Shown piece after piece: positions 2,787-59,101 of a stretch of 64,000 bases of DNA. Made by a program: the position numbers and the translations under genes. The notes under the pieces were generated by a model. It saw only the letters and a list, made by a program, of their open reading frames with translations. It searched no databases and was not told the DNA's origin. Positions within the stretch are counted from its first letter, which is position 1; each line of letters begins with the position of its first letter. The DNA comes from Bacteroidia bacterium (GTDB taxonomy: Bacteria; Bacteroidota; Bacteroidia; AKYH767-A; OLB10), in assembly GCA_016788065.1 (NCBI GenBank), contig JAEUTI010000001.1, positions 62,001-126,000 on the forward strand, in the 5' to 3' direction.

Positions 2787-5700
2787 ATGAGTATGATGAA
2801 AAAATTACTTCTAAGCACACTAATTTTTCTACTGGCGCATTTCAGCTCCGTGCTTGCTCAAAATTATAACATTTCGAATTCTACTGTTTCCACTTGTTCG
2901 GGAAATTTTTATGACAGTGGAGGAAGTGGTGGTAATTATGCGAACAACGAAAATTACGTAATGACATTTTGCTCGAATGTTCCCGGCGAATGTGTGCGGG
3001 TATCATTCAGTGCATTTGACCTTGAGGATGGATTTGATTTCTTAACAGTTTATAACGGTTCCAACACATCAGCACCTGTTTTGGGAACCTATACCGGAAC
3101 TACAATTCCCGGAATACTTACATCCACAACCGGTTGTTTAACTTTTGAATTTACATCTGATTTCTCACAACGGGGACCGGGTTATGAAGCTGTGCTCTCC
3201 TGCGTACCATGTCCTGGTTCAGCCTGTCCGTCTTGCAATGGTGGTGCACCACCTGCAAATGATGCATGTAGTGGCGCAATGAATTTGGGAGCATTGCCTG
3301 CTCCTGCTGCGTGTCCTAACGGTGTGGGCGCATGGGCAAATTTTAACACTACCAATATTTGCGCTACAGCAGAAAATCCATACACCACACTTTCCGGTTG
3401 TCAGCCTGCGGGAAATATGGCATCTCCGGCAACTGATGTATGGTATCGTTTTACCATCACAGGACCAACTTTAAATATTCAGATTGCAGGGATGCAAACT
3501 CCAAACATTGGATTGTATGCAGGAAATAATTGCAACAATTTAACAGGACGAGGTTGTGCCATTGGCGGAGGTGGAATTTTGAACACTTCATTTGGGGGAC
3601 TAGCACCGGGCACCTATTATCTTCAGGTGAGTGGAGGAAATTTGAACGATCAGTGTGCATTTACACTTTCCATGCAAAATAATTTCGATTGTCAGGGTTG
3701 CGTGATTCAAAGTGGATTTACTGCAGCACCACCACCAACTAACGGAACATATTCTGCAGGTCAAACAGTAACGTTTTGTTATACAGTAACCGATTACAAT
3801 CAAACTTCTATCAACTGGCTTCATGGAATAGTTCCTTCTTTTGGAGCAGGATGGGATATGAGTACGCTGGTTACAAATCCTCCTGTTTCATGTTCCGGAC
3901 AAGGCACCTGGTCGTGGTACAATACGAATGTTACCAGTACTTCAACAGGTAATGTCACAGGTCCCGGATTTTATTTCGAATCGGCTTTAGGAAATGTTGG
4001 AGGTGTTACGGATGGTAACCCCGGGAATAATTTTGGAGATAACAATCCGAATAATTTGTGTGACTGGACCTTCTGCTGGACTATTACTACTTTACCTCCG
4101 GCCGCATGTGTGCAGGGAGCTTCTTTGAATATTACAGTGGATACCTATGGAGATGGGGAGTCGGGTTCATGGACTTCACTTGCATGTACCGGAGATCCGG
4201 TAGCAGATTTCTTTGCAACACTTACCTGTTGTGCGCCTCCTTCAGTCGCCGTAACTGATCCACTATGTTTCGGTCAAAATACAGGTTCTGCAACTGGTAC
4301 CGGGCAAGGTAATGCACCATGGGACTATATATGGAAAAATAATGCCGGTGTAACTATACAAACGGCAAACAATGTTAATGGATCAAATACTATCAACAAT
4401 CTCGCACCAGGTAATTACTCTCTTACATGTGTTGATAATACCGGATGTACTTCAGTAACTAATTTTACCATAACAGCTCCAACTCAAATTGTCGTCAACA
4501 CAGTTCCCACCCCAGCATCCTGCAACGGATTAAGTGATGGATCTGCAACTGTGAGTGCTGTCGGCGGTGCAGGTGGTTACACGTACCTGTGGGCACCATC
4601 AGCAAATACTGGCACAATTGAAACATTGCTGGCTGCAGGCACATACACTGTTACTGCTACTGATGCAAATGGTTGTACCCGATCAACAACAGTTGTAATT
4701 ACACAACCGGGTGTTATCAATGTTAATACCAGCTCAGTAAATGCAAATTGCGGTGCGAATAATGGATCTGTAACCGTCACTGCAAATGGGGGTGTTGGCG
4801 TTTTACAATACAGCATCAATGGCGGAACTTCCTTTCAGGCATCAAATATTTTTCCTGGTCTGGGGTCCGGAAATTACAATGTTGTTGTACAAGATGCCAA
4901 TGGATGTCAGGGTACCGCAGTTGCTCAGGTAAATAACTCACAGGCACCGGTTATAAACAGTGCTCCATTTACAAATGTCACTTGTAATGGAGGAAGCAAC
5001 GGGAGCATTACTATCAATGCCTCCGGAGGAACAGGAGCATTGCACTATAGCATAAACAATGGAACCAGTTTTGTTGCAGGAAATGTTTTCAATGGATTGG
5101 CAGCGGGCAACTACAGTATTATTGTTGAAGATGCAAATGGTTGTCAAGCCACTCTCAACATTACCATCACAGAACCACCATTACTGGTTGTAAATTTAAC
5201 AGGTGTTGATCCTATTTGCGGAAATGCAAATGGAACGATCACTGTAAATGCTGTCGGCGGTACTGGTGCACTTCAATACAGTTTGAACGGAGGCGCATAT
5301 CAGGCAGCTGCAACTTTCGGCTCTTTATCACCAGGAAATTATACGGTTACTGTCAGGGATGCAAACAACTGCACCATGAATGCCGCTATTGTTCTATCAA
5401 CGGCTCCACCATTAGTAATTGCCGGAGTGCCAGTTGCAAGTACTTGTGGTAATTCAAATGGAAGCATCACAGTTAATGCAAATGGTGGAACCACCAATTA
5501 TGATTACAGTATTAACGGAGGCGCATTACAATCAACCACTGCTTTCAATAATTTAAGTGCAGGAAATTATACAGTGATGGTAACAGATGCTAATGGATGT
5601 ACCGCAACTGCACTGATTGCAGTTGCCGATCAGCCAGGGCCAAACATTGTAACTGCAGTTCCGACTGAAGTTACTTGCTTCGGTGGCTCGAATGGAGCAA

Positions 5701-8700
5701 TTACAGTTACAACAGCCGGTGGCACAGCACCAATTCAATATAGTCTGAATGGAGGTCCCTTTCAATCATCAGCTATTTTCGATACTCTTTATTCCGGAAA
5801 TTACAGCATACTAATACAGGATGCGAATGGCTGTACGGATGTAGTGAATGTCACAGTTTCAGAACCATCAGCGGTATTGGCACCATGGAATGGACAGAAC
5901 TCCACTTGTGGATTTAGCAATGGATCTGTTACAGTAACTGCATCAGGCGGTACCGGAACGCTGATGTATTCTCTGAATGGTGGTCCGTTCCAGTTAAGCA
6001 ATACATTTAACAATTTATCAGCCGGCAATTATGATATAACCGTTCAGGATGCCAACGGTTGTATTGTTGTAGCGCAGACTTCAGTAAGCAATGTTCCGGG
6101 ACCAGTTATTCCAAATCTTACACTCACCATGGTCACATGTAATGGTGGCAATGATGGATCGGTAATAATTAATACCATTGGAGGAACATTACCATTTCAG
6201 TATTCAATCAATAATGGAGCAACTTATCAGGCCGGAAATACTTTCAACAATTTACCAGCAGGAAATTTAGTGATTCTTGTTACTGATTCTAATGGTTGCA
6301 CTGTTGCTACCAATGATGTTATCACGGAGCCATCATTAATAGTGGGTAATGAAATTATTACCGGATCAACCTGTAGTAACAGCAATGGATCGGTAACCAT
6401 TACTGCAGCAGGTGGAACAGGTGCATTGCAATATAGTTTATCAGGTGCACCATTTCAGGCAACAGGAAATTACTCCGGCTTAGCTGCCGGAAATTATTCT
6501 TATGAAGTTCAGGATGCTAATCATTGTATTGTAACAGGGAATTTTGTTATTCCTGATGCCCCCGGTCCAATTGTTACAAACACAGCTTTCACAGAACCTT
6601 TATGTAACGGTGGTACTGATGGCACCATAACCATCACAACGAATAGTGGAACCAATCCTTTGCAATTTACATATCCCGGCGGCCCAACATTAGCTTCAGG
6701 AAACTTCACTTCTGTTGCAGCGGGAACATACGACATTACAGTAACTGATGCTAACGGTTGCACTGCAACTACACAGGTTACGGTTACAGAACCTACACCT
6801 GTAGCAGTAAATATAAACATTACAGGATCAACCTGCGGTTATGCAAACGGCTCCATTGCAGCAGTCGGCAACGGAGGAACAGGTGCGATTCAATACAATG
6901 TTGATGGAGGCGCATTTCAGGGAAATGGCAATTTCAACAATTTACTTGCAGGAAACTATACAGTGATTGTTCAGGATGCGAATGGATGTTCACTTTCGAC
7001 TCCGGTGGTTATACCTGATGCTCCCGCACCTACTATTAGTAATATTCCCATAGTAAATCTGGTTTGCAATGGTGGAACTACCGGTGAAATTTCAGTTATA
7101 ACTGCAGGAGGAACCGGAGCACTTTCATATGCTCTTAATGGCGGCCCATCTCAGGCCAATAATACGTTTACGAATCTTGCGGCAGGTGCGTATACTGTTG
7201 TGGTAACAGATGCCAATGGTTGCACAGTTTCAGGAAATGTTAATTTGACGGAACCAACCTTGCTTGTAGTTACTCCTGCTGAAACACCATCCACTTGCAG
7301 CAATTCAAATGGAGTGATTACAGTAACAGCTAATGGTGCAACACCAGCTTACCAATATAGTTTAAATGGTGGAGCATTTCAGGCTTCTAATACTTTCAAC
7401 GGACTAGCAGCAGGCAATTATTCTGTCACAGTTGAAGATGCTAATGGTTGTCAGATTACAGAACCCATAACTGTTACTGATCTCCCCTCACCTGTTGTTT
7501 CAAATGTTGTAGTTGTAGATGCAGCATGTTACGACAGCGATGACGGCTCTGTAACAGTTACTGTTAATGGTGGGACAGCGCCACTTACATATGCAATGAA
7601 TGGAGGTCCATCGCAGGCAACCGGCATATTCAATAATCTGGTAGATGGCAATTACACGGTAATCGTTACCGATGCAAACGGATGTACTGCAACTGCAAAT
7701 GCTGTTGTCAATGAACCAACAGAGATAACATTAGTTGCAGTTCCTACTCCTTCAACTTGCGGATTTGCCAATGGCAGCGTTCTGATGAACGGGGCCGGTG
7801 GTACAGGAGCACTGACATACAGTCTGAATGCAGGACCATTTCAAGCATCAAATATTTTCAACAATCTACTTGCAGGAAACTACAATGTAACTATTCATGA
7901 TGCTAATGGATGTGAATTAAAAACCAACATCGCCATTTCTGATTTACCCGGACCGATAATAACTTCAGCTCCTGTAACCGATGCTCTCTGTTTTGGATCT
8001 GCAGATGGAACTATTACCATAAATACAAATAGTGGCACAGCTCCTCTTAATTTCAGCATAGATAATGGAACAACTACACAGGCTTCCAACAACTTCAATA
8101 ATCTTGTTGCCGGAAATTATGATATTGTGGTAACTGATGCAAATGGTTGTACTGCTATTTCCTCTGTAACTATAAATGAACCTGCTCTGCTGATTGGAAA
8201 TGCAGTGACTGTATCTTCTACTTGCAGCAATTCGAACGGATCTGTTACTGTAACTGAAGCAGGTGGTACACCCGCATATCAATTTAGTTTGAATGGTGGA
8301 GCACCACAACCTACAGGTAGTTTCTCCGGTCTACTGGCAGGAAATTATGATGTAGTTATTACCGACGATCACAGTTGTTCGGTGACAGTAAACTTTACTG
8401 TTTCCGATGAGCCATCACCTACACTTACCGCAAACAACATCACCAATGTAAGTTGCTTTAATGGCAATGATGGTGAACTTACAGTTGGCATAGCAGGAGG
8501 AACTGCGCCAATCAATTTTGCTTTAAATGGTGGTGCGAATCAGTTATCTCCTACATTCAGCGGACTTACCGCAGGAAACTATACCGTATTGGTAACAGAT
8601 GCTAACGGTTGCACGGTTCAGACCAATGAGGTAATCACAGAACCAACTATTCTTGCAGCAACTTACACAACCATTAACTCAACATGTTCAGCAAACAACG

Positions 8701-11700
8701 GAGCTGCAACGATCAATGCTTCCGGTGCTACTCCGGGATATACATTCCAGCTCAACAGCAATCCTGTTCAACCCGATTCTGTTTTCCAGAATTTGCTTGC
8801 AGGAAATTATACTATTACCATAACCGACTTGATGAATTGTCAATTGCAATTGCCAATTACCATCATTGACGAACCATCCCCTGTAATCTCTGCTGTTGCT
8901 GTAACCCCTGTAACATGTAACTCAGGAACCGATGGTACTATTACCATTACTTCTAATGGTGGAACTGGTACAATAAATTACAGTATTGATAACGGAGCAA
9001 GTTCAACCACGGGAAATATTTTCAGCACTCTTGTCGCAGGAACTTATGATATTGTTATTACCGATGCAAATGGTTGTACCGCCATTGATCAGGCAGTCAT
9101 ATCGGAGCCCACAGCAATTACTTCTAATATTAATACTACAAGCGCTTCATGTGGTAACAGTGACGGAACTATTACAGCAGTTGCTAATGGAGGAACACCG
9201 GGCTATCAGTATTCAATCGACAATGGTATAACCAATCAACCAAGTGGCAATTTCACCGGACTTCTTGCAGGAAACTATACCGTACTCGTAACTGATGCTA
9301 ACGGTTGCACAGAAAACTTTGCTGCCGCAATCAGTAATACCGCGGCCCCGGCGATCACCGGCGCTCCGGTTACTGACCTTACCTGCTTCAATTCAGGAAA
9401 TGGAACACTAACCATAAATGCAAATGGTGGAACAGCACCTTTAAATTACAGTATCGATAATGGTGCAACTTTCCAATCAGGTAATTCATTTACGAATCTG
9501 CCTGCCGGAAATTATCAACTGGTGGTTGAAGATGCTTTAGGGTGCCAGGCTAATTTTGCTGCCACCATAACAGAACCCGCATTACTTACTATCAACACAG
9601 CCTCAGTAAATACAACTTGTAGTGCATCGAATGGTAGCATTACCATAACTGCCGGAGGTGGAACAACCGCATACAATTATAGTATCGATGGCGGAACCAC
9701 GAATCAGTTAAGCGATGTTTTTGCTGGTATTGCATCAGGCAATTATGTGGCATTAGTTACAGATGCCAATGGTTGTACCGCCCAGGCAAATGTGACTATA
9801 ACTGATGCTCCCGGTCCGGGAATCACTTCTGCAAATGGAACAGATGCAACCTGTAATGGCTCAAATGACGGATCAATAACGGTTGTTGCAAATAGCGGCA
9901 CAGCACCATTGACATTTAGTATCGATAATGGCGCAACGACACAAAACAATGGCAACTTTAATAATCTTTCACCTGCTAATTATACCATTCTTATTAGTGA
10001 TGCTAATGGCTGTACAGCTTCAACATCCGTTACCATAAATGAACCATCTGCAATAGTTATAAATTCAAATTCAACTCCTGCTTCCTGTGGAAATAGCGAT
10101 GGAACTCTCACAATAGTTGCAGTTGGAGGTACCGGCACGCTGGAATATAGCATCGACAATGGAACAACCTTCCAGAGTTCAGCTACATTTAATAATTTGG
10201 TAGCTGCAACTTACGATGTTGTTGTAAAAGATGCAAACGGATGTACAGCAGCAGCAACCGGCACTGTGAATAATGCCGCTGCACCTGTAATAACCAACAG
10301 TGCAACAACCGATATTACCTGTTTTGGTTCTAACAACGGAACTATAACTATCAGCGCCAATGGTGGTACAGGGGTTCTGCAGTACAGTAATGATAACGGA
10401 GCTACTTATCAAGCGACAGGAACATTTAGCAATCTTGCGCCCGGAACATATAATATTATTGTTGAAGATGTAAACGGATGCCAGGCAACTACATCACTCA
10501 CTATCGTAGAACCTACTGCAATAACTGCTTCCGCCACTCTTGTAAATACAACATGTTCAGATGCCAATGGGTCCCTGCAAATTAGTGCCGGCGGAGGAAC
10601 AGGCAGCTTGTCCTACAGCATCAATAATGGTGTCTCATTTCAGGCATCAAATAACTTTAACAATCTGCTTGCAGGAAATTATACTATTATTATTGAAGAT
10701 GACAATGGATGTCAGCTTTCAATAAATGAAACTATTCAGGATGCACCGGCTGCTATCATCAGCAATATTGCAATTACAGACCTGACATGTAACGGATCAG
10801 ATGATGGAATCCTTATTGTTACTGCAAACGGAGGAACGGCACCATTGCTTTACAGTATCGATAACGGAGTAACCACTCAATCGACAAATACATTTAGTTC
10901 ACTTACTCCGGGTAACTACACCATCCTTGTTACAGATTCAAATGGATGTACCGTAACTGGTCCGGCAACAATTACAGAACCTGCAGCTATAACTGCGGTT
11001 TACTCATCAACAAATGCTTCCTGTGGCAATGCCGATGGAACATTAACCATTAATGCTAATGGAGGAAGTGGCACCTTGTATTACAGCATTGATAATGGAG
11101 TTTCCTTCCAATCTTCATCAACTTTCTCATTCCTGACAGCCGGAAGTTATACCATCCTGATAAAAGATGTTAATGGTTGCGAAATTTCACTGGCCACAGC
11201 CGTAAACAACAATGCAGCTCCATCTATTCAAAGTAATCCATTTTCAAACATTACCTGTAACGGAGCCGATGATGGAACAATTACCGTAAATGCCTCCGGT
11301 GGAATCGGAAATTTATTGTACAGCATAGACAATGGTGTTACCACTCAAAACAATGGCGTTTTCACCAGTCTTACTTCAGGCATTTATAATATAGTAGTTA
11401 CTGATGTGAATGGTTGCAGCGCAACATCAATTGTGACAATTACAGAACCACAATTACTTACTGCTACTGCGGCAGCTGTTACAAGCACTTGTTCTTTAAA
11501 CAACGGAAGCTTGACCATCTCAACCAATGGAGGTACACCCGGTTATCAATTCAGCATCAACGGCGGCACAACTTTTAGCAACAACGCTACCTTTAACAAT
11601 CTGATTTCACAGGCTTATAACATCACAGTTCAGGATGCTAACGGCTGCTCCTTCTCGTTCATATCCAATGTACCATCTGCACCAGGTCCATCCATCGCAG

Positions 11701-14700
11701 CAGTATTCACCAACAATATCAGTTGTAATGGTTATAGTGATGGAATAATTACGATATCAGCCAATGGTGGAAGTGCACCTTTACAATACAGCATAGATAA
11801 TGGTACTACCTTCTCTTCAGGCCTTGTTTTCGATTCACTGGGAGCAGGAAATTATCAAGTTGTGATAATGGATGCCAATGGTTGTACATCCACATCTGCA
11901 GGCACCATTACACAACCATTTGCAATAACTTATTCTGTAAATGTTGTAAATGCAAATTGTGGCAATAGTGATGGAAGTCTGCAAATTACTGCCAATGGTG
12001 GTAGCGGCACATTCACTTACAGCATCGACAACGGAGCCACATTCCAACCAGGCAACTCATTCAGTTCATTGCCTGCAGGAACGTACCAGATTATTGTACG
12101 CGATGCAAGTGATTGTATCAATAGTGGTACAGCGACCATCTTAAATAATTCTGCTCCGGCAATCCAAAATACTTCGGTAACCAACAACAGTTGCAACGGA
12201 TCAGATGATGCCTCTATTACGATTGCTGCTGCAGGCGGAGCTGCACCTTTATCCTACTCTATTGATGGCGGATTCACATGGCACACTAATCATATTTTCA
12301 CTGGTCTTGCACCCGGCAATTACTCCATAATAGTAAGTGATACAACCGGATGTACTGCAACCGGTTCAGCAACACTCACAGAACCTGGTGCGATAGTAGC
12401 AACTTACACTACAATACCTGCAACATGCAGTAACAGTGATGGATCAGTATTACTTTCAGCATCAGGTGGCTCGGGAGCATTGTCATATAGTCTCAACGGA
12501 GGCCCTGCACAAACCGGTTTGACATTCAGCAATCTTGCAGCCGGTAATTACAATATTGTGATAACTGATGCTACCGGATGTTCACACACATTAGTTACCT
12601 CCGTGAGCAACCTGAATGCACCTTTGATCAACAGTATCACTTCAAATGACATTAGTTGTTTTGGTGGAACTAATGGAAGCATTTCAATTGGTGCTACCGG
12701 CGGAACAGGAATACTTCAGTTTAGTATTAATAACGGACAAAATTTTGTTCCCGCTTCTGTCTTCAATAATCTTTCAGCAGGCACATACAGCATTGTGATT
12801 ATTGATGCCAACAATTGTGTTTCGACAGGAAATATTACACTTAATCAGCCGGATCAACTTGTTCTGAATTCGCTGGAAATTCCTTCGACTTGCGGAAATG
12901 CAAACGGTCAGATTCAAACATTGGTTACCGGAGGAACATTGCCGGTACAATATTCAATTAATAACGGAACTACCTATCAAAACCAATCGGTTTTCAATAA
13001 CCTCGCACAAGGCAACTATCAGATATTAATTACAGATGCCGAAGGTTGCACCACTTCTACAAGTCAAACTGTTACCAACATTGCAGGACCATTGGTTGCT
13101 GCTTTGCCTGTTACCAATAGTTTGTGTAATGGAAGTGATGATGGATCTGCTACCATTAACTTAAATGGCGGAACCGGACCATTTCAATATGTGCTTAATA
13201 ATGGAACTATCACTCAACAAAATAATTTCTTCTCACCATTAGCACCCGGAAATTACACAATTGAGATTACAGATGCTAATGGTTGTAACACCGATTCATC
13301 GTTTACCATCAGTGAACCAACTCCGGTAACCTTGTCTTTCACCGTTGTGAATGCCACCTGTAGCGCTTCAAATGCATCCTTACAACTTTCAGGAAATGGC
13401 GGAACAGGTACGATCACATATAGTAACAATAACGGATTAAGCTTCCAGAACAGTTCTTCGTTCCAAAATCTGCAAGCAGGTAATTACACACTTATAGCTA
13501 TTGACAGTAACGGTTGCACTGCATCCCAGAACGCAGTTATTACAGATGCCCCTGCACCGGTTTTACAAACTGTTTCATCGACAGATGTAACTTGCAACAG
13601 CCTTGACAATGGAACACTAACCGCAAACATTACAGGTGGAACGGCACCGATACTTTTCAGTATAGACAATGGAATTAATCTGCAAACTTCACCAACGTTT
13701 AACAATCTGGCACCCGGAGTCTATACAGTTTCCATCACCGATGTGAATGGCTGCTCTACCAATGGAACAACACTCATCCATGAACCTGCAGCAATCATTA
13801 CATCTACATCTTCAATAGCTGCATTATGTTTCGGAACTGCAACCGGTACTGCATCTATAACGGTTAACGGAGGAATTGCTCCATATTCATACAACTGGCC
13901 GGCTTCCGGATCGAATGGTAGTACTGCAACCAATTTGAGTACCGGAAACTATTTGGTAATGGTGACAGATTCAAATGGATGCACCATCACTGATTCGGTT
14001 TTTGTGGATCAGCCGGATGCAATCACAATGAATTCAACATTACAAAATATTTCATGCAATGGTTTAACTGATGGCAGCATTCAAATCATTCCTTCCGGAG
14101 GAACAGCTCCTTTCAATTATAACTGGTCTTCACCTGCCATATCAGGAACAGGAAACTTCGGAATTGCTGCCGGAGCTTATACAGTTACAATTACTGACGC
14201 AAATGGTTGCACCGGTGTTCAGAACTTCACTTTAACTGAACCTGCAGCTTTAAGTTTAGGAACATCATCGACTCCGGCAGGTTGCTTCGGAACTTCAACC
14301 GGTACAGCAACTACATCCATATCCGGTGGAACAGCACCTTACTCCTACTTATGGTCAAACAATGCAATCACAGCAAATCTTTCGGCAATCCCTGCAGGCA
14401 CTTATACGGTAACCGTTAGTGATGCGAATGGATGTACAGCAATGCTTTCCCAAGTTGTTACTCAACCTGACGAATTAATTGCATCTTCAACTGGCACCAA
14501 TGTTACTTGTAATGGTTCATCAAATGGAACAGCTAGTGTTACCGCAACAGGAGGCACACTTCCTTATTCATACTTGTGGAATAATGGTGTAAGTACATCC
14601 GGCATTTCAGGTGTTAATGGAGGAAATTATCAGGTAACTGTTACTGATGCCAATAATTGCCAATCAGTCACTACAATCCTCATAACAGAACCTGCTGCGA

Positions 14701-15947
14701 TCACTGTTAATGTTGCCGGTGCTGCAACGATTTGCATCGGGCAATCGACACTCATAAGCGCAACAGCACAAGGTGGAAATGGTGGATACAGTTATTTATG
14801 GAGTAATGGTGTTACAGGAAGTTCTCAATTAGTAAATCCAACAACCACTGCAGGCTTTAGTGTTGCAGTTACCGATTCAATGGGCTGTACCGGATCATCT
14901 GTTCCAGTAACCGTTACGGTCAACCCTCCTCTTGCAATTTCAATTTCTCCTAATGATACAATCTGTGAAGGGGAAACTACATCAATAAGTGCCATTGCTA
15001 CAGGTGGTAATGGAGGCCCTTATTCATTCAGTTGGAATTCACTTTCAGACATTACTGCACAAGTAAATGTTGCTCCAACAACTACTACCTCCTACATCGT
15101 AACTGTAACTGATGGTTGCGGAACACCTGCAGTCAATACTTCTGCAACGATTCTGGTAAATCCATTGCCTGTAGTCGACTTCACACCAGTTCCTGCTTCA
15201 GGTTGTGCTCCGCTTACAGTATTATTCGACAATAACACGGTTTCTGCAACCACCGGCACTTCATTTACCTGGTATTTTGGAGATGGTTTCAACAGTAACG
15301 ATTTTGAGCCTTCACATATTTATAACGAACCCGGATTCTATACAGTAATTCTGAAAGCTGTTTCATCAGAAGGCTGCATCAATGAACTGGTACAAAATGA
15401 TGTCATTGAAGTATTCCCGGTACCGGAAGCTAATCTTGCAGTGAGTCCAATGGTTGGTTCTATCCTGTATCCATACATAAATTTCACCGATTTAAGTAAT
15501 GGTGCTACTATATGGAATTGGGACTTTGGTGATGGAAGTACATTTGGAACTGAAGCAAACATGCAACATACTTATGAGCAAACCGGAAATTATAATATCA
15601 CTCTTTATGTGATGAATGATTATGGTTGCAGCGACACTGCCTACAGTGAAGTTATCATTGAAGGCGCTTCTACGGTCTATATTCCAAATGCCTTCACTCC
15701 AAATGGTGATGGCAAAAACGATACTTTCTCTGTTTATGGAATAGGTTTAAATGATGCCGACCTGGTTATCTTTAACCGTTGGGGAAATGCAGTTTTCAGA
15801 ACTTCCAATCTCAATGAAGCATGGGATGGAAAAGATCACTTCTCAGGCGGAGATTGTCCCGTTGATGTGTACATTTACAACGTGAAAGTCAAAAACTTTA
15901 AAGGCGAAACTCAGGAATTCACCGGAAGAGTTACTCTGCTGAATTAG
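2787..15947 (+). CDS. Giant SprB-repeat surface adhesin with T9SS type B sorting domain
   Basis: The 4386-codon frame has a signal peptide ending near residue 25 (VLAQ). In order it carries a CUB-like domain (about residues 30-138), a PPANDAC linker with a jelly-roll-like segment (about 155-295), a further unassigned N-terminal region, 45 SprB-type repeats counted by eye (bases about 4250-14700, roughly 75 residues each), two Ig-like segments, two PKD domains (YFGDG and DFGDG, bases about 15170-15660), and a C-terminal type B (gliding-motility-associated) sorting domain beginning near IPNAFTPNGDGKND. SprB of Flavobacterium is a mobile adhesin moved by gliding motors, but this architecture also occurs in non-gliding Bacteroidota. 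Export through T9SS and surface attachment are inferred from the C-terminus. ATG codons at 2787, 2793 and 2796 are all possible starts. The next gene begins 8 nt downstream. Confidence 0.93.
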   Translation: MSMMKKLLLSTLIFLLAHFSSVLAQNYNISNSTVSTCSGNFYDSGGSGGNYANNENYVMTFCSNVPGECVRVSFSAFDLEDGFDFLTVYNGSNTSAPVLGTYTGTTIPGILTSTTGCLTFEFTSDFSQRGPGYEAVLSCVPCPGSACPSCNGGAPPANDACSGAMNLGALPAPAACPNGVGAWANFNTTNICATAENPYTTLSGCQPAGNMASPATDVWYRFTITGPTLNIQIAGMQTPNIGLYAGNNCNNLTGRGCAIGGGGILNTSFGGLAPGTYYLQVSGGNLNDQCAFTLSMQNNFDCQGCVIQSGFTAAPPPTNGTYSAGQTVTFCYTVTDYNQTSINWLHGIVPSFGAGWDMSTLVTNPPVSCSGQGTWSWYNTNVTSTSTGNVTGPGFYFESALGNVGGVTDGNPGNNFGDNNPNNLCDWTFCWTITTLPPAACVQGASLNITVDTYGDGESGSWTSLACTGDPVADFFATLTCCAPPSVAVTDPLCFGQNTGSATGTGQGNAPWDYIWKNNAGVTIQTANNVNGSNTINNLAPGNYSLTCVDNTGCTSVTNFTITAPTQIVVNTVPTPASCNGLSDGSATVSAVGGAGGYTYLWAPSANTGTIETLLAAGTYTVTATDANGCTRSTTVVITQPGVINVNTSSVNANCGANNGSVTVTANGGVGVLQYSINGGTSFQASNIFPGLGSGNYNVVVQDANGCQGTAVAQVNNSQAPVINSAPFTNVTCNGGSNGSITINASGGTGALHYSINNGTSFVAGNVFNGLAAGNYSIIVEDANGCQATLNITITEPPLLVVNLTGVDPICGNANGTITVNAVGGTGALQYSLNGGAYQAAATFGSLSPGNYTVTVRDANNCTMNAAIVLSTAPPLVIAGVPVASTCGNSNGSITVNANGGTTNYDYSINGGALQSTTAFNNLSAGNYTVMVTDANGCTATALIAVADQPGPNIVTAVPTEVTCFGGSNGAITVTTAGGTAPIQYSLNGGPFQSSAIFDTLYSGNYSILIQDANGCTDVVNVTVSEPSAVLAPWNGQNSTCGFSNGSVTVTASGGTGTLMYSLNGGPFQLSNTFNNLSAGNYDITVQDANGCIVVAQTSVSNVPGPVIPNLTLTMVTCNGGNDGSVIINTIGGTLPFQYSINNGATYQAGNTFNNLPAGNLVILVTDSNGCTVATNDVITEPSLIVGNEIITGSTCSNSNGSVTITAAGGTGALQYSLSGAPFQATGNYSGLAAGNYSYEVQDANHCIVTGNFVIPDAPGPIVTNTAFTEPLCNGGTDGTITITTNSGTNPLQFTYPGGPTLASGNFTSVAAGTYDITVTDANGCTATTQVTVTEPTPVAVNINITGSTCGYANGSIAAVGNGGTGAIQYNVDGGAFQGNGNFNNLLAGNYTVIVQDANGCSLSTPVVIPDAPAPTISNIPIVNLVCNGGTTGEISVITAGGTGALSYALNGGPSQANNTFTNLAAGAYTVVVTDANGCTVSGNVNLTEPTLLVVTPAETPSTCSNSNGVITVTANGATPAYQYSLNGGAFQASNTFNGLAAGNYSVTVEDANGCQITEPITVTDLPSPVVSNVVVVDAACYDSDDGSVTVTVNGGTAPLTYAMNGGPSQATGIFNNLVDGNYTVIVTDANGCTATANAVVNEPTEITLVAVPTPSTCGFANGSVLMNGAGGTGALTYSLNAGPFQASNIFNNLLAGNYNVTIHDANGCELKTNIAISDLPGPIITSAPVTDALCFGSADGTITINTNSGTAPLNFSIDNGTTTQASNNFNNLVAGNYDIVVTDANGCTAISSVTINEPALLIGNAVTVSSTCSNSNGSVTVTEAGGTPAYQFSLNGGAPQPTGSFSGLLAGNYDVVITDDHSCSVTVNFTVSDEPSPTLTANNITNVSCFNGNDGELTVGIAGGTAPINFALNGGANQLSPTFSGLTAGNYTVLVTDANGCTVQTNEVITEPTILAATYTTINSTCSANNGAATINASGATPGYTFQLNSNPVQPDSVFQNLLAGNYTITITDLMNCQLQLPITIIDEPSPVISAVAVTPVTCNSGTDGTITITSNGGTGTINYSIDNGASSTTGNIFSTLVAGTYDIVITDANGCTAIDQAVISEPTAITSNINTTSASCGNSDGTITAVANGGTPGYQYSIDNGITNQPSGNFTGLLAGNYTVLVTDANGCTENFAAAISNTAAPAITGAPVTDLTCFNSGNGTLTINANGGTAPLNYSIDNGATFQSGNSFTNLPAGNYQLVVEDALGCQANFAATITEPALLTINTASVNTTCSASNGSITITAGGGTTAYNYSIDGGTTNQLSDVFAGIASGNYVALVTDANGCTAQANVTITDAPGPGITSANGTDATCNGSNDGSITVVANSGTAPLTFSIDNGATTQNNGNFNNLSPANYTILISDANGCTASTSVTINEPSAIVINSNSTPASCGNSDGTLTIVAVGGTGTLEYSIDNGTTFQSSATFNNLVAATYDVVVKDANGCTAAATGTVNNAAAPVITNSATTDITCFGSNNGTITISANGGTGVLQYSNDNGATYQATGTFSNLAPGTYNIIVEDVNGCQATTSLTIVEPTAITASATLVNTTCSDANGSLQISAGGGTGSLSYSINNGVSFQASNNFNNLLAGNYTIIIEDDNGCQLSINETIQDAPAAIISNIAITDLTCNGSDDGILIVTANGGTAPLLYSIDNGVTTQSTNTFSSLTPGNYTILVTDSNGCTVTGPATITEPAAITAVYSSTNASCGNADGTLTINANGGSGTLYYSIDNGVSFQSSSTFSFLTAGSYTILIKDVNGCEISLATAVNNNAAPSIQSNPFSNITCNGADDGTITVNASGGIGNLLYSIDNGVTTQNNGVFTSLTSGIYNIVVTDVNGCSATSIVTITEPQLLTATAAAVTSTCSLNNGSLTISTNGGTPGYQFSINGGTTFSNNATFNNLISQAYNITVQDANGCSFSFISNVPSAPGPSIAAVFTNNISCNGYSDGIITISANGGSAPLQYSIDNGTTFSSGLVFDSLGAGNYQVVIMDANGCTSTSAGTITQPFAITYSVNVVNANCGNSDGSLQITANGGSGTFTYSIDNGATFQPGNSFSSLPAGTYQIIVRDASDCINSGTATILNNSAPAIQNTSVTNNSCNGSDDASITIAAAGGAAPLSYSIDGGFTWHTNHIFTGLAPGNYSIIVSDTTGCTATGSATLTEPGAIVATYTTIPATCSNSDGSVLLSASGGSGALSYSLNGGPAQTGLTFSNLAAGNYNIVITDATGCSHTLVTSVSNLNAPLINSITSNDISCFGGTNGSISIGATGGTGILQFSINNGQNFVPASVFNNLSAGTYSIVIIDANNCVSTGNITLNQPDQLVLNSLEIPSTCGNANGQIQTLVTGGTLPVQYSINNGTTYQNQSVFNNLAQGNYQILITDAEGCTTSTSQTVTNIAGPLVAALPVTNSLCNGSDDGSATINLNGGTGPFQYVLNNGTITQQNNFFSPLAPGNYTIEITDANGCNTDSSFTISEPTPVTLSFTVVNATCSASNASLQLSGNGGTGTITYSNNNGLSFQNSSSFQNLQAGNYTLIAIDSNGCTASQNAVITDAPAPVLQTVSSTDVTCNSLDNGTLTANITGGTAPILFSIDNGINLQTSPTFNNLAPGVYTVSITDVNGCSTNGTTLIHEPAAIITSTSSIAALCFGTATGTASITVNGGIAPYSYNWPASGSNGSTATNLSTGNYLVMVTDSNGCTITDSVFVDQPDAITMNSTLQNISCNGLTDGSIQIIPSGGTAPFNYNWSSPAISGTGNFGIAAGAYTVTITDANGCTGVQNFTLTEPAALSLGTSSTPAGCFGTSTGTATTSISGGTAPYSYLWSNNAITANLSAIPAGTYTVTVSDANGCTAMLSQVVTQPDELIASSTGTNVTCNGSSNGTASVTATGGTLPYSYLWNNGVSTSGISGVNGGNYQVTVTDANNCQSVTTILITEPAAITVNVAGAATICIGQSTLISATAQGGNGGYSYLWSNGVTGSSQLVNPTTTAGFSVAVTDSMGCTGSSVPVTVTVNPPLAISISPNDTICEGETTSISAIATGGNGGPYSFSWNSLSDITAQVNVAPTTTTSYIVTVTDGCGTPAVNTSATILVNPLPVVDFTPVPASGCAPLTVLFDNNTVSATTGTSFTWYFGDGFNSNDFEPSHIYNEPGFYTVILKAVSSEGCINELVQNDVIEVFPVPEANLAVSPMVGSILYPYINFTDLSNGATIWNWDFGDGSTFGTEANMQHTYEQTGNYNITLYVMNDYGCSDTAYSEVIIEGASTVYIPNAFTPNGDGKNDTFSVYGIGLNDADLVIFNRWGNAVFRTSNLNEAWDGKDHFSGGDCPVDVYIYNVKVKNFKGETQEFTGRVTLLN
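4250..14700 (+). repeat. Array of 45 SprB-type repeats, mostly alternating in two types
   Basis: Each unit of about 225 nt begins with a Cys motif and ends with a D-A/x-N-G-C segment. Type A units read C[NF]Gx2DG and end in a TEP linker; type B units read STC[GS]xSNG and end in a DAPGP-like linker. The types alternate A-B over units 7-41, giving a period of about 460 nt. Units 1-2 and 42-45 carry a YLW-like segment where the core units have YSIDNG. The repeats are clearly diverged at the DNA level rather than identical. Confidence 0.85.
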
Positions 15948-27729: not shown

Positions 27730-30700
27730 ATGATCATGAGGAAGTTAATCTTTACTTTACTATTTATCAGTTCTACTTTTCTGCTGAAAGCCCAAACAAC
27801 GGTTTTCTCGGAAACGTTTGATACGCCACCACCAAACATGTCTTCGAGCGGTTCTCCGGGTTGGTTTATCAATTCCAGATTGCAAACAAGCATTCCGAAC
27901 AGTGACTCGTCGTATATCAGTGCTCCCGGAGACATTTCCTATCTGGAGTCACCTTCATTCGACTGCTCCTTTAACTTTTTTGTCACTTTGAAGTTCAAGC
28001 ATATTTGTAAAATCGAATTCTTTGACAAAGGAACAATTGAATTGTCAATTGACGGTGGTGTAACATGGACACAGCTTATTGATGATGGAACTCCTGCATC
28101 CAACTGTACCTACATGGGAACAGGTCTGTTCGGAACTCAGCAAAATGCTTTCCGTGAAGCATCATATGCTACCTGGCTACCAGGTCAATCTGTTTTAGCT
28201 GACAATTCCTGGTGGAAAAGTGAGGAATTTGATATCTCTGCCTTAGCAGGTAATAATCCTGATGTTCGTATCCGCTTCAAAGTTGCAGATGATAATAACA
28301 ATGGTGGTGCCGGCAGAAATGGTTGGTTTGTTGACGATGTAGAAGTAATTGCATCTTTCTGTGAGTTAATTCCACCTGCTGTTTACAATTTGCCTCCAGT
28401 TTATCCAGGAACAGTTTATAACACCGGACCTTACACAATTAATATTGCAGCAACAGATATTTCAGGTATTGCATCTGCATCCTTGAATTATACTTTAAAT
28501 GGCGTGGCTCAACCAACTATTTTAATGGCAAATATTGCTGACAGTACCTTCCAGGGAATTATTCCTGCTGCGGTTGCCGGTGACACTATTTGCTATTATG
28601 TTGAAATTGCTGATGCTTCTTTCTGCGGTAACCTGAATTATATTCCCGGACCAAGTTCTGTTGAAACATTCTGCTTTATTGTTGAAGATGGAATTTCATT
28701 CCCTTATTGTGATAACTTTGATATTACTACTAATCTTTGGACACCAAGTGCTGTAAATACAACTTCCGTTTGGGAACTGGGCACACCAGCCTTTGGTGCG
28801 ACCAACTCTGCACATTCTGCACCGAATTCGTGGGATATTAATCTTGTATCTGCTTATGATAACGGAGCAAATGCAACCTTACTATCGCCTCAATTAAGTT
28901 TTATAACCGGTGCCGGTGCTACATTCGAATTCTGGCATAACTTCAGTACTGAAGGTGGCTGGGATGGTGTTCGTGTTGAATGGACTACCGACACAACTAC
29001 CGGACCATGGAATGTTTTAGGTTCTGTGGGTTGCGTTGATTGTGTTAACTGGTATACCGATGCTGCATTGAATACCGATCAGCTTCCAGGTTGGGAAGGT
29101 AATTCAGGTGGTTGGATAAAATCTTCAATTATTCTCGATACTCAATTTAATAACCTTCCACAAGTTTGGTTCCGTTTCCGATTTGTTTCTGATGGATCAT
29201 TAAATGGTGACGGTTATTCTATTGATGATATTTGTATTTCTTTACCTCAACCTGATGATGTTGGTGTGACTGCAATCACACAGCCTGGCCCAACAGGTCC
29301 TGCAGGTAACTGTTTAGATGTGATTGTAGACGTTAAAAATTATGGTCTCAATACTCAAACAACATTCCCTGTTACTTATGTTGTTCAACCAGGTGGTTTA
29401 ACAGGCACTGCTACCTATACCGGTTCATTAACTCCGGGTGCAACTGCACAGGTAACATTACCTTGTTTCAATGTACCGGTTGGACCATATAGCATTTGCG
29501 TTTACACTGGTCTTCCAGGTGATGCAAATAACTTTAATGATACTACCTGCACAACTTCTATAGGTATTCCTGTTCTTACACTTACAAATTGTGATGATTT
29601 TGAAAGTGGTAACAACGGATTCCAGACCTTCACTACCAATGCAAATAATGCTGACTGGCAACTAGGTACTCCCGCATTTGGAGCTACCACAGGTGCTTAC
29701 TCAGGTACCAATGCATGGGATATAAATTTGAATAGTGGTTATGGTGTTGGTGCTGAAGCAACTTTGACTACACCAATTTATGACCTTGTTAACCCAAGTG
29801 TTGCAGTCAATGCTTATCTTTCATTCAGAAGAAATATGAATACTGCAGCCAGTGATGGTTTCCGTGTTCTATATGACGTTAACGGTCTTGGCAACTGGAC
29901 TATTCTCGGAACTGTTGGTGATCCTAATGGTTATGACTGGTACAACACCGCTTCTATTAACTTCGGCGATCCAGGTTGGTCTGGAAACAGCGGTGGCTGG
30001 AAAGAATCAAGATATTATTTACAAGATGTAATTACTGCTACAGGTGCAACTTTCATTCAGTTCCGTTTTGAATTCACCAGTGGTTTCAATGGAACTCCAA
30101 ATGATGGAGTAAGTATTGATGACCTTTGTGTGAAACAACCTGGTCCGGATGATGTTGGTGTTACTGCAGTAGTAGAACCAAATCCAAATGGTCCTGCTGG
30201 AGGAACTTCAAACGTTTCTGTAGTTATTCGCAATTTTGGTACTGCAACTCAAAATTCTATTCCTGTAGAATATACTGTTAATCCTGGTGGTATCACAGGC
30301 ACTGCAACTTACATTGGCGCTCTTGCTCCAAATGCAACTGCATTACTTAATATGCCAACCTTCACTGTTCCTTCAGGAACTTATGTGTTCTCTGCTTACA
30401 CTCAATTACCTGGTGATTCTGATAACAGCAATGACACTACAACTGTTAACCGTGTCGGTGTTCCGGTAATTCCATTGACTTATACCAGTCCTTTCTGTGA
30501 TAATTACGATGGAACTAACGTTGGCTGGTCTGCTAACGTAGTAGGTACAGGAAATATCGGTTCTCAATGGGAACTTGGTGCTCCTGCATTCGGTGCTACC
30601 AACTCTGCATTTAGTGCTCCAAATGCATGGGATATTAACCTGAACGTTGGTTATACTCCAAATGCAAACTGTGAATTGTTATCGCCAATTTTTGACCTGT

Positions 30701-32283
30701 CAAATGCTGTTGATGTTAAACTTTCATTCTGGAGAAATAGCAACTGCGAAGACAACTGGGATGGTGTTCGTCTGGAGTATTCAATCAGCGGTGGTCCATG
30801 GACATTATTGGGTGGTGCAAATCAAACTGCTCCTTGCTGGGTAAACTGGTACAACTTTGCAAACCTTAACTCATCAGGTTTACCAGGATGGGCTGGAACA
30901 ACCGGTGGTTGGGTTAAAGTTGAAGCTAACTGCCTTGGTATATTTGATAATGAGCCCGAAGTTCAGTTCCGTTTCGTATTTACTTCTGATGCCAGCGTGC
31001 AGGAAGATGGATTCTCAATTGATGATTTCTGCGTAACTGTTCCTGTACCTTTGACTGCTGCTCCTATTACTGTAAATACTTCAGCAATCAATAACAGCTT
31101 CATCTTCCCAGGTCAGTCAATTCAATTCACATCTCCTATCTCGAACCCGGGAACTACTCCATTAACTTCAGTAGATGCAACGCTTACTATTAATGGTGTT
31201 CCAATCGTGACTGATCCAATTGCTTACTCACCAGCATTGGCTTCTCAAGCTAACCTGCCTCATACATTCAGCCAATTATGGACTGCTGCTCCTGGTGTTT
31301 ATGATGTATGTGTTATTACTTCGAATCCAAATGGAGGAACTGACTTGAATCCGTTTGATGATACAACTTGTATCACCATCTCTGTATTCGACAGCGTAAC
31401 GGTTACTTCAGGTAATCCTTATTGTACCGATTTCGAATCAGGACCACAATGGGTTTCTGTAAATGCACTTACTTATAATAACACTCCGGGTAACTCCTGG
31501 GAACTTGGTACACCAAATCAAACTATCATTAACAGTGCGTTCAGTGGTGTAAATGCATGGACAATCGATCTTGATGGAAACTACCAGGGTCGTGATACTT
31601 CCGGTTTATTCTCGCCAGTATTCTCAATAGATAATACTTCATGCTATAAACTCAGCTTCCACCACAAATACGACACTGAGCCATTTATGGACGGAGGAAC
31701 TGTTGAATATTCTACAGACTTCGCAACAACATGGAATCAGCTTGGTTTTGCTTCAGGTACTCCTCAACCATGGTACAACACAAGCTTTATCACAGCACTT
31801 GGCGGAATACCAGGACTTCCAGGTTGGTCAGGAACCGAAACCAGCTGGATACTTGCTGAAAAAGAAACCAGCTTCCCTACCGGTTCTACTGTAATCTTCC
31901 GTTTCCGCTTTGCATCTGATAATACAACCAACAACTATGAAGGTTGGGCTATTGATGATGTGTGCTTCGAAATGCTTCCTACAGCTTGTGTTGTTGGTAT
32001 CAATGATCCTCAAAATGGAAATGGTATGATCTTAGGTCAGAACTATCCAAATCCATTTAATACAACTTCTGTAATCGGATATTCTATCCCATCTGCCGGA
32101 GCGGTAAGAATCAGCATCACCAATGTATTAGGTCAGGAAATCGCTGTTCCGGTTGAAGGAACAAGAGCTGCAGGAAATCATACTTTCACCATCGATTCAA
32201 AAGACTTCGGTGCAGGTATCTACTACTACACTCTTGAATTCGAAGGACAGAAAATGACAAATAAAATGGTCATTACCGAATAA
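27730..32283 (+). CDS. T9SS type A secreted protein with five jelly-roll modules
   Basis: The 1517-residue protein has a signal peptide ending near LLKAQ (residue 22). Five jelly-roll (MAM-like) modules are visible, each closing in a segment like DGxSIDDxC; they lie at bases about 27800-28360, 28705-29250, 29585-30140, 30490-31035 and 31420-31975. Modules 2-4 share WELGxPAFGATxxAxS. Between them are CARDB-like linkers beginning DDVGVTA, at about 29255-29560 and 30145-30455, and a divergent one at 31050-31400. The C-terminal type A sorting domain starts with LGQNYPNPFN and ends MVITE. No enzyme motif is seen; surface binding or matrix function is inferred. Codon use is rich in GGT, GCT and ACT, suggesting strong expression. 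A clear terminator follows. Confidence 0.9.
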   Translation: MIMRKLIFTLLFISSTFLLKAQTTVFSETFDTPPPNMSSSGSPGWFINSRLQTSIPNSDSSYISAPGDISYLESPSFDCSFNFFVTLKFKHICKIEFFDKGTIELSIDGGVTWTQLIDDGTPASNCTYMGTGLFGTQQNAFREASYATWLPGQSVLADNSWWKSEEFDISALAGNNPDVRIRFKVADDNNNGGAGRNGWFVDDVEVIASFCELIPPAVYNLPPVYPGTVYNTGPYTINIAATDISGIASASLNYTLNGVAQPTILMANIADSTFQGIIPAAVAGDTICYYVEIADASFCGNLNYIPGPSSVETFCFIVEDGISFPYCDNFDITTNLWTPSAVNTTSVWELGTPAFGATNSAHSAPNSWDINLVSAYDNGANATLLSPQLSFITGAGATFEFWHNFSTEGGWDGVRVEWTTDTTTGPWNVLGSVGCVDCVNWYTDAALNTDQLPGWEGNSGGWIKSSIILDTQFNNLPQVWFRFRFVSDGSLNGDGYSIDDICISLPQPDDVGVTAITQPGPTGPAGNCLDVIVDVKNYGLNTQTTFPVTYVVQPGGLTGTATYTGSLTPGATAQVTLPCFNVPVGPYSICVYTGLPGDANNFNDTTCTTSIGIPVLTLTNCDDFESGNNGFQTFTTNANNADWQLGTPAFGATTGAYSGTNAWDINLNSGYGVGAEATLTTPIYDLVNPSVAVNAYLSFRRNMNTAASDGFRVLYDVNGLGNWTILGTVGDPNGYDWYNTASINFGDPGWSGNSGGWKESRYYLQDVITATGATFIQFRFEFTSGFNGTPNDGVSIDDLCVKQPGPDDVGVTAVVEPNPNGPAGGTSNVSVVIRNFGTATQNSIPVEYTVNPGGITGTATYIGALAPNATALLNMPTFTVPSGTYVFSAYTQLPGDSDNSNDTTTVNRVGVPVIPLTYTSPFCDNYDGTNVGWSANVVGTGNIGSQWELGAPAFGATNSAFSAPNAWDINLNVGYTPNANCELLSPIFDLSNAVDVKLSFWRNSNCEDNWDGVRLEYSISGGPWTLLGGANQTAPCWVNWYNFANLNSSGLPGWAGTTGGWVKVEANCLGIFDNEPEVQFRFVFTSDASVQEDGFSIDDFCVTVPVPLTAAPITVNTSAINNSFIFPGQSIQFTSPISNPGTTPLTSVDATLTINGVPIVTDPIAYSPALASQANLPHTFSQLWTAAPGVYDVCVITSNPNGGTDLNPFDDTTCITISVFDSVTVTSGNPYCTDFESGPQWVSVNALTYNNTPGNSWELGTPNQTIINSAFSGVNAWTIDLDGNYQGRDTSGLFSPVFSIDNTSCYKLSFHHKYDTEPFMDGGTVEYSTDFATTWNQLGFASGTPQPWYNTSFITALGGIPGLPGWSGTETSWILAEKETSFPTGSTVIFRFRFASDNTTNNYEGWAIDDVCFEMLPTACVVGINDPQNGNGMILGQNYPNPFNTTSVIGYSIPSAGAVRISITNVLGQEIAVPVEGTRAAGNHTFTIDSKDFGAGIYYYTLEFEGQKMTNKMVITE

Positions 32284-37453: not shown

Positions 37454-37568
37454 CCACAAAACCACCATTTTGGTGAAAAATGCCGAATTCTCAAAAATTT
37501 CAACTGAATACTCAAAACTCTCAAACGAAATCAAATAAGACTTGCACATTTGTTTAAAATTAAAACAA

Positions 37569-39152
37569 ATGAAAAAGCTACTACAAATCGTAATCATACT
37601 TATTCTCTCAAGTACGCTACATGCACAGAATACAGCATGGATTACACAACTGAATGAAGAAGAAAATTTTGTTGCCGCCGGAGCAACGAAATATTTTACA
37701 GTTTCAAAAACACCGTATAATAACAGAACCTATACCGTGCGATCGTTCAATTCTAGCGGAACTCCTCTACTGGCAACTACGATTTTTCCAAATTCTCAGT
37801 ACACCAACATGAAGATAATAAAGATACTTGCTACTTCTTCTGATGAATTATACATATTAGGAAATATTAGCTTTGGCACAACTTTTCGATGTGTACTGAT
37901 TAAGTTAAACAGCAACCTACTCCAGCCCTGGATGCGGGAAATTACCCAAGGCGTTAAAACTTATGGAATAGATCTTGCTGTAAAAGGATCAAATATAACT
38001 GTTCTAACAGCATTTTATCCAACTGCAACCGGTGGCACAAGAGCCGGCCTTACATCATGCAGTATTTCCAATGGAAATATAGTCCAGTCGTCACAACCTA
38101 CATTCGACTTTACACCGCGACAAATGGCAATTGATGGAAATCAAAATGTATATGTATGTGGTGGATCAGAATTAAGTTTGAATCATGCTCGAGTAGTAAA
38201 ATTTAATTCTTCACTTATAGTTACATGGAATTTTCTGACAACGCTAGCTTCCAGCACAACGACTCTAACTCCATTCGAATTTGTTCAGGTAGACATCGCA
38301 GGGAATGTTTATGTTGGCGGCAACAGTTTCAATAGTACCTGGGGAGTATTCAGAAATGAAGTGAGAAAATTATCCTCTTCCGGCACTCAAGTCTCAAGTT
38401 ACGTTTCATCAAATATAAATTCTCATGAGCTTATAAAAGCCATGAAACTTAATATCGCAGGTTCCCTGTTCTATGTATCAAGGATGCAATCATCTGCTGG
38501 AGATTATGTTAACCACAGAATAGTAAAACTTTCAACTGCAACTGCTTTAGCATATCAAAACTCTTTTGTTACCAATAATGTGTGGCCAACAAGTGGAGTG
38601 ACGTTAACGGGTTTTGAAGTCACACAAGGAGGTGCTGTATTCATGACGGGAAAACGTACAGGAACATCCAATCTTACAATCAATTACTTGTCTTTCAAGC
38701 TCAAAAGTAACTGGACATACGATTTCTCTGAACAATATAATGGCGGCAGATGCAATAGCTTGATAATAGCTATACCGGGCTCTTTCCCTAACGATGAATT
38801 CGTTACCACCGGAGTGATTGGTAATATAAATATGCTGATTAAATATACCGGAGTAGCACCAAAACTAACACCCGATTCAGCGCCTTCTCCAGTAGCCGAA
38901 ATAACTAAATTGACTTGCTATCCAAATCCTGCAAACTCTTTTATTTCTATAGCAGGCATAACCGACATGACCGGAATTAATTTAATTGATATGTCCGGAA
39001 AGCAACATGCAATTCAAACAATTGAATCAAATTTTGATGGCTCTACATACAACATCAAAATTGATGTTAGTCAGTTAGCCAAAGGAATATACATTTTATC
39101 AGCCATCAACCAAGGTAAAGTTGAAAATATAAAAGTGGTTGTTGATCATTGA
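37569..39152 (+). CDS. T9SS type A secreted protein, repeat-propeller-like
   Basis: I start at ATG 37569 (MKKLLQIVIILIL), which begins the signal peptide ending LHAQ; the frame extends 27 nt further to a less suitable ATG. The mature 500-residue body has repeated segments of the kind KFNSSL, DIAGNVYVGGNSF and LYILGNISF, resembling SBBP/NHL-type beta-propeller proteins that are often annotated as delta-60 repeat-like. The C-terminus (LTCYPNPANSFISI to KVVVDH) is a type A sorting domain. Function is unknown; export to the cell surface or medium is inferred. A very strong terminator follows the stop. Confidence 0.86.
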   Translation: MKKLLQIVIILILSSTLHAQNTAWITQLNEEENFVAAGATKYFTVSKTPYNNRTYTVRSFNSSGTPLLATTIFPNSQYTNMKIIKILATSSDELYILGNISFGTTFRCVLIKLNSNLLQPWMREITQGVKTYGIDLAVKGSNITVLTAFYPTATGGTRAGLTSCSISNGNIVQSSQPTFDFTPRQMAIDGNQNVYVCGGSELSLNHARVVKFNSSLIVTWNFLTTLASSTTTLTPFEFVQVDIAGNVYVGGNSFNSTWGVFRNEVRKLSSSGTQVSSYVSSNINSHELIKAMKLNIAGSLFYVSRMQSSAGDYVNHRIVKLSTATALAYQNSFVTNNVWPTSGVTLTGFEVTQGGAVFMTGKRTGTSNLTINYLSFKLKSNWTYDFSEQYNGGRCNSLIIAIPGSFPNDEFVTTGVIGNINMLIKYTGVAPKLTPDSAPSPVAEITKLTCYPNPANSFISIAGITDMTGINLIDMSGKQHAIQTIESNFDGSTYNIKIDVSQLAKGIYILSAINQGKVENIKVVVDH

Positions 39153-58596: not shown

Positions 58597-58615
58597 TTTA
58601 TTAGTATTTAAATTG

Positions 58616-59101
58616 TTAATAATTATATCTAAGTGTATTCGGAGAGGGAGATAGAGCAATAAATTCAACAGTACTAAATAAAATCCCGTGATTATTTGAT
58701 GCTAGGCCCGAATAATTATTTCCTAAAGAAATAAAATAAGTTATTTGATACTTTTTGTTTATTTGCATGGGAGATATTAATGCACAAGAAATGTGTTCTC
58801 GGTAATTCAAACCGTTGCGACTGTAAGTAATAAGTCCAGCATATGCTTTACCATCTTGGGCAAATTGAAAACCTAATGGATTATTTGGAACTGACTGGTT
58901 TCCATTTGGACCATCACATTCATTATAATAGTCTGGAGAATTCCAACTGGAGAACCAGCCTACTGCATATTCAAGTTGATCAGGGAAAATTGGGCAACTT
59001 AAAGTATCCTCAAAACTCGGATTAGGAACCAAATTAAACTGAGCCTTTAAAGGTCCATAAGTCAATGCCACTAATATTATAAGCAAAAAGCAATTTTTCA
59101 T
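58616..59101 (-). CDS. Short secreted N-terminal fragment, probably truncated
   Basis: The 161-residue protein has a signal peptide ending LKAQ and then the widespread Bacteroidota opening LVPNPSFEDTLSCP, GWFSSWNSPDYYNECD and GKAYAGLITY. In other proteins this domain continues another 50-100 residues and is followed by an OmpA-like or T9SS domain; here it stops at NTLRYNY and the next gene starts 19 nt later, with no sorting domain. It is thus probably a truncated remnant, though a secreted short protein is possible. It heads the set that includes the beta-helix protein. Confidence 0.6.
   Translation of the reverse strand: MKNCFLLIILVALTYGPLKAQFNLVPNPSFEDTLSCPIFPDQLEYAVGWFSSWNSPDYYNECDGPNGNQSVPNNPLGFQFAQDGKAYAGLITYSRNGLNYREHISCALISPMQINKKYQITYFISLGNNYSGLASNNHGILFSTVEFIALSPSPNTLRYNY

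Follow-up and report, generated by a model that had tools for sequence, protein, structure and literature searches.

The locus studied here raises the question of how a giant secreted bacterial protein comes to carry repeats of two types in strict alternation, and what such an order might be for. The window, that is the whole stretch of 64,000 nucleotides that was analysed, contains an open reading frame of 4386 aa (2787..15947, + strand, as are all further features of this gene) encoding a giant type-B secreted protein of the type IX secretion system (T9SS) with SprB repeats, CUB, PKD_4 and CHU_C/TIGR04131 domains. The profile matches identify it as a SprB-repeat protein (PF13573, E 1e-278, 898.8 bits over 34 stretches, several matches above the Pfam cut-off) and as a T9SS type-B substrate (TIGR04131, 52.8 bits against a cut-off of 35, aa 4299-4385). 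An N-terminal region with the CUB domain (aa 1-482, 2787..4232), which serves as the marker of an orthologue family, precedes the repeat array, and a PKD_4 domain (aa 4232-4288, 15480..15650; profile match) and the type-B C-terminal sorting domain (TIGR04131/CHU_C, 15681..15941) follow it. The name SprB, used in the first-pass annotation, is loose for this gene: the SprB repeats are present, but the sprB-sprF locus of the genome lies on another contig (contig 61, 155.6-164 kb, - strand), where the porP/sprF gene (153806-154687, -) is found just past the array of a paralogue, L010. No sprF/porP was found beside the window gene and no TIGR03519 match on its contig, the neighbours being lipase 3, peptidase C92, DUF4199 and OstA-like genes. 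The genome encodes GldJ, which permits gliding and is no proof of it. Elsewhere in the window, two more secreted proteins carry T9SS Por_Secre_tail domains (27730-32283, + and 37542-39152, +), one of them with MAM-like repeats, and a 2607-aa protein (50845-58668, -) has an end resembling a T9SS sorting tail.

With boundaries set just before the first conserved Cys (unit position 12), 45 SprB-like units of 75-85 aa each were cut from the protein; the Pfam SprB model, with 37 positions, covers about half of such a unit. The array opens with two A-type units (U01-U02, 4233..4715), of which U01 is the sole unit conserved in position across genera, followed by an irregular start of B A B B (U03-U06, 4716..5642) that holds the sole B-B junction, U05-U06. 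From U07 to U41 (5643..13793), where each unit measures 77-78 aa, A and B alternate without exception, and the array closes with A-type units in tandem (U42-U45, 13794..14699). The alternation had been read from unit 7 to unit 41, and unit cutting recovers the same numbers without a break; the probability of such perfect alternation in a random order of 18 A and 17 B units is 1/C(35,17), or ~2e-10. A two-unit period of ~153 residues or ~460 nt had likewise been claimed and stands as a two-unit period, its size being corrected to 466 nt since the mean unit is 77.6 aa (233 nt). A units start with C-[NFY]-x-x-x-[DN]-G and end in [EQ]P plus two residues, while B units start with C-[GS]-x-x-[ND]-G, with a post-Cys loop one residue shorter than that of A, and leave through a linker of the form "..PGP/AAP", one residue longer than that of A and mostly P-final. 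Mean identity in the window is 0.440 among A units, 0.419 among B units and 0.370 between the types (0 of 10000 relabellings as extreme), with complete separation at four columns and partial separation at more than 10 others. The two unit types and their strict alternation are thus confirmed.

The differences are unevenly spread along the unit. The prediction that A and B would form separate clades holds for all columns, where the 20 B units (U03, U05, U06 and even-numbered U08-U40) are all set apart by a single branch (support 96/97), but with core columns only, from the loop to the second Cys, the types mix while keeping some clustering (6 changes against 11.9 in shuffles). It is thus chiefly in their neighbour-facing ends that A and B differ, and across nine proteins the differences lie at Cys-2, at Cys+1 to +3 and in the closing residues of each unit. 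A given loop type goes with its matching linker type in 91% of the units in the window and in 90% of those in orthologues, and the diagnostic residues follow the unit itself, whatever the type of its neighbour. What unit comes next has little bearing on the residues of an A unit; the dependence on the previous one is stronger, but descent is a confounder here, as the superrepeat is inherited. Protein identity along the window array zigzags (0.390, 0.445, 0.382 and 0.462 at lags 1-4), in agreement with the periodicity that had been expected near 460 nt, although in a codon alignment the signal is weak (0.490 at lag 1 against 0.511 at lag 2) and Tandem Repeats Finder reported no repeat in the window. 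The same zigzag, stronger in the clean two-unit superrepeat of L010 (0.59 at lag 2, 0.39 at lag 1), could be taken to mean that neighbouring units are kept unlike so as to prevent inter-domain misfolding, an idea put forward for the Ig domains of titin (PMC4660218). We hold this to be very improbable: misfolding should depend on the core, whose identity in the window is nearly the same at lag 1 (0.501) and lag 2 (0.511), adjacent A units in one orthologue (L050, genome G005, array units 10-17) reach 94% DNA identity, a recent single-unit amplification, and other SprB arrays show 69-84% identity at lag 1. As a general rule, neighbour divergence is ruled out by such recent A runs.

Structure prediction suggests what the unit ends may look like. 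AlphaFold2 models built from shallow alignments of window sequences only (16 and 17 sequences) gave an all-beta chain for U23-U26, in the order ABAB, with pLDDT 93.8 and a pTM of 0.61 that leaves the chain shape open, and a model of the U23-U24 pair with pLDDT 95.2. Both B units of the four-unit model show a short strand just ahead of the Cys (88-89 and 244-245) as well as one within the exit linker (152-153 and 308-309), and these two probably pair with each other; the DSSP strings of the A units are without the exit-linker strand, again so in the A-B model. The predicted fold is Ig-like and appears closest to the Aureispira protein GhpA, whose fragments top the Foldseek and VIA-align comparison of the four-unit model (Z 10-11, rmsd 5.6-6.5 over 279-293 residues). 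One fibronectin fragment scored 10.6 against the same model, so that part of the GhpA match reflects the common geometry of beta-domain chains. A single-sequence search for solved relatives gave none.

Since identity over the first 482 aa is 58-98% across about a dozen related genomes of several genera, the arrays downstream can be compared; the protein at 98% comes, in the named collection, from Bacteroidota bacterium KLAP29, of the same genus. Three orthologues from other genera (L055, L056, L059) combine AAAB blocks with ABAB runs, another with 71 units (L057) contains A6B, AAAB and ABAB within one array, and L054 repeats A6B three times, a period-7 order that is clear by unit type but has p 0.7 by identity. 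Long runs of A occur in L050 and L057, A17B is also found behind the same N-terminus, and a more distant relative (L097) has BBBAA with a period of 5. In OLB10 (L052/L072) the array is split over two reading frames, of 2939 and 712-913 aa, by a frameshift, a gene break or an assembly error, and one in-frame TGA was observed in the N-terminal region of another orthologue (G038 contig 1, 1741000-1742451, -). The first-pass annotation had suggested that the A-B pair may be a structurally fixed two-domain block, duplicated as a unit, for which the G5-E domains of SasG would be a parallel. Strict alternation, the pTM of 0.77 of the A-B model and the pair duplication seen in L010 would agree with it; the fixed interface is nevertheless weakened by A-A junctions, which are common in the window protein (U41-U45) and predominate in the AAAB, A6B and A17B orthologues, by diagnostic residues that ignore the neighbour's type, by A and B distances without shared history and by the four-unit block of several orthologues. 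We thus consider a fixed pair unlikely; A and B are autonomous modules, and the strict A-B sequence is one order among several.

This four-unit order appears to be superimposed on the two-unit order in part of the window array as well. Two forms of B can be told apart, B1 with CG.. and an N..AAP linker and B2 with CS.. and an APGP-like linker, and in U20-U41 (8652..13793) they would follow one another as A-B1-A-B2 with a period of ~931 nt. The residue after the Cys of B units alternates between G and S from U08 to U40 apart from a single slip at U18/U20 (16 of at most 17 runs, p 0.0007, a post hoc observation), and in U20-U34 this coincides with the two linker forms. When lag 4 was compared with lags 2 and 6, A/B parity being preserved in the shuffles, the excess in the window had p 0.02 in U20-U41 for all columns and 0.01 for edge columns, but was weak (p 0.28) over U07-U41; no lag-4 order was seen among the A units of the window. 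The orthologues give p 0.0005 (L057), 0.001 (L055, L056), 0.012 (L059) and 0.02 (L050, L052), and the Fisher combination of the window with four other genera, five genera in all, yields 1e-6. In L057, the final B residue alternates faultlessly, 12 times, between P and A/G. Four units is thus the true period in several orthologues, of which traces remain in the window.

How the array grew is not legible in the window, because fourfold sites are flat (identity 0.35-0.39 at all lags); past duplications have left no readable trace, and the pattern survives in the protein alone. The Mantel test found A and B distance matrices uncorrelated in either register (p 0.25 and 0.09). Growth by duplication of pairs, as first suggested, is plausible all the same and is seen directly in L010, with up to 93% DNA identity at lag 2, while units 17-23 of L057 are lag-4 block copies (91% DNA). 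The window array itself is frozen: in a same-genus genome (G001), 39 of 39 comparable units correspond one-to-one in the same order, with 88-100% aa identity and 68% identity at fourfold sites. The same genome, assembled separately, disposes of misassembly. Long repeats are prone to it and the window comes from a draft of 97 contigs, but units that are ~45% identical are too diverged for collapse, and chance or artefact can be given a negligible probability. Duplication followed by purifying selection would be the simplest account.

We propose that the array forms the stalk of a giant T9SS-exported surface adhesin, a stalk of patterned hinges made of two Ig-like modules in a lineage-specific superrepeat, and give this reading a probability slightly better than even (about 0.55). 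The two modules would be autonomous and share a common core, each with its own coupled exit hinge: in A, a longer post-Cys loop with an [EQ]P linker, and in B, a loop one residue shorter with a linker one residue longer, mostly P-final and, in the model, beta-bridged. Their order would be a superrepeat whose period is set by lineage, of 2, 4 or 7 units in the orthologues and 5 in the more distant relative, arisen from the duplication of one-, two- or four-unit blocks and afterwards maintained by purifying selection; in the window it would be A-B-A-B and in part A-B1-A-B2. If the hinge of B is docked and that of A is freer, as the DSSP strings of the AlphaFold2 models may indicate, the order of modules would set the bending and stiffness of the stalk. 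We infer this mechanical role, and likewise the use of the array as an adhesive stalk; what is observed are the two types, the order in which they stand, its conservation and the variable period. The plain A-A-A arrays of other Bacteroidota (L186-L188) speak against the hinge model in that patterned hinges are dispensable for a SprB-repeat protein. They agree with the main rival, in which unequal crossing-over copies blocks of two or four units along with an existing order that has no function of its own, as do the period that varies among orthologues and the recent block copies in L010 (lag 2), L057 (lag 4) and L050 (lag 1). Such a neutral relic is a serious possibility, though a clearly less probable one, as all 35 units, and the same-genus genome too, keep the A/B signature intact despite saturated synonymous sites. 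The count of B-B junctions from unit 7 onward, which over nine proteins is 0 where shuffles lead one to expect 28, also tells against it, with the reservation that strict block repetition would give the same.

Outside the orthologue family, SprB repeats are widespread, occurring in 76 of 296 genomes of a phylum sample. Two giants of 7001-7027 aa at sprB-sprF-like loci of one genus (L174 in G264, L176 in G280) have a seven-unit superrepeat, with lag-7 identities of 0.48 and 0.46 against 0.26-0.29 at other lags, and a giant directly followed by porP/sprF (G307) has a five-unit one (0.47 against 0.30-0.37). The loop-linker rule is obeyed by 90-91% of units in L010 and the orthologue family, by 77-80% in other sprB-sprF-like giants and by only 59% in the remainder of the survey, so that superrepeats are more widespread than the A/B code. 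Because relatives reuse the same two types at other regular spacings (4, 5, 7), the two-type pattern is apparently a general and undescribed building rule of the adhesin family; the papers found in a literature search describe no superrepeats in SprB-type adhesins, though the subscription literature may contain an earlier remark on them. It may be speculated, as a rather improbable extension, that a phylum-wide modular code governs SprB-family giants including the canonical gliding adhesins, with two hinge modules whose lineage-specific period (2, 4, 5, 7) sets filament mechanics or helical pitch; the properties of a stalk could then be read from its sequence. A two-module code with shifting periods offers a handle on the growth of giant stalks through block size, on the spread of array lengths among orthologues that share the N-terminus (the longest reaching 71 units in a 6145-aa frame), and a guide to constructs worth solving. 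The seven-unit superrepeat at other Bacteroidota sprB-sprF-like loci brings the question within reach of tests on a laboratory strain.

SprB-type adhesins transmit the force of gliding to the substratum. Among known systems, the window protein shares SprB repeats, giant size and a T9SS type-B signal with SprB/PF13573 proteins, and a superrepeat with the sprB-sprF-like loci of the same-class genomes G264 and G280, but it has no adjoining sprF/porP and its period is 2/4, not 7. SprB itself, the gliding adhesin of Flavobacterium johnsoniae, measures 6497 aa (PMC9870892). SasG of Staphylococcus aureus is similarly a long surface stalk with two domain types, E and G5, in tandem; its E domain folds only with the following G5, which makes the order obligatory (PMC4458895), whereas in the window array, as in its orthologues, A also stands beside A and both types have one common core. 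The best structural match, the grappling-hook protein GhpA of Aureispira (PDB 9flp-9fly, 9g8b), is also a giant Bacteroidota protein, made of Ig-like domains such as are predicted for the window array, at 15-18% identity in the structural alignments and with a weak profile hit (E 0.0026). The A-band super-repeats of titin are unrelated, and their mix of Ig and FnIII domains reflects features of the thick filament, but they too form a giant chain of beta domains in which types recur with fixed higher-order periods (PMC10665226, PMC7427331).
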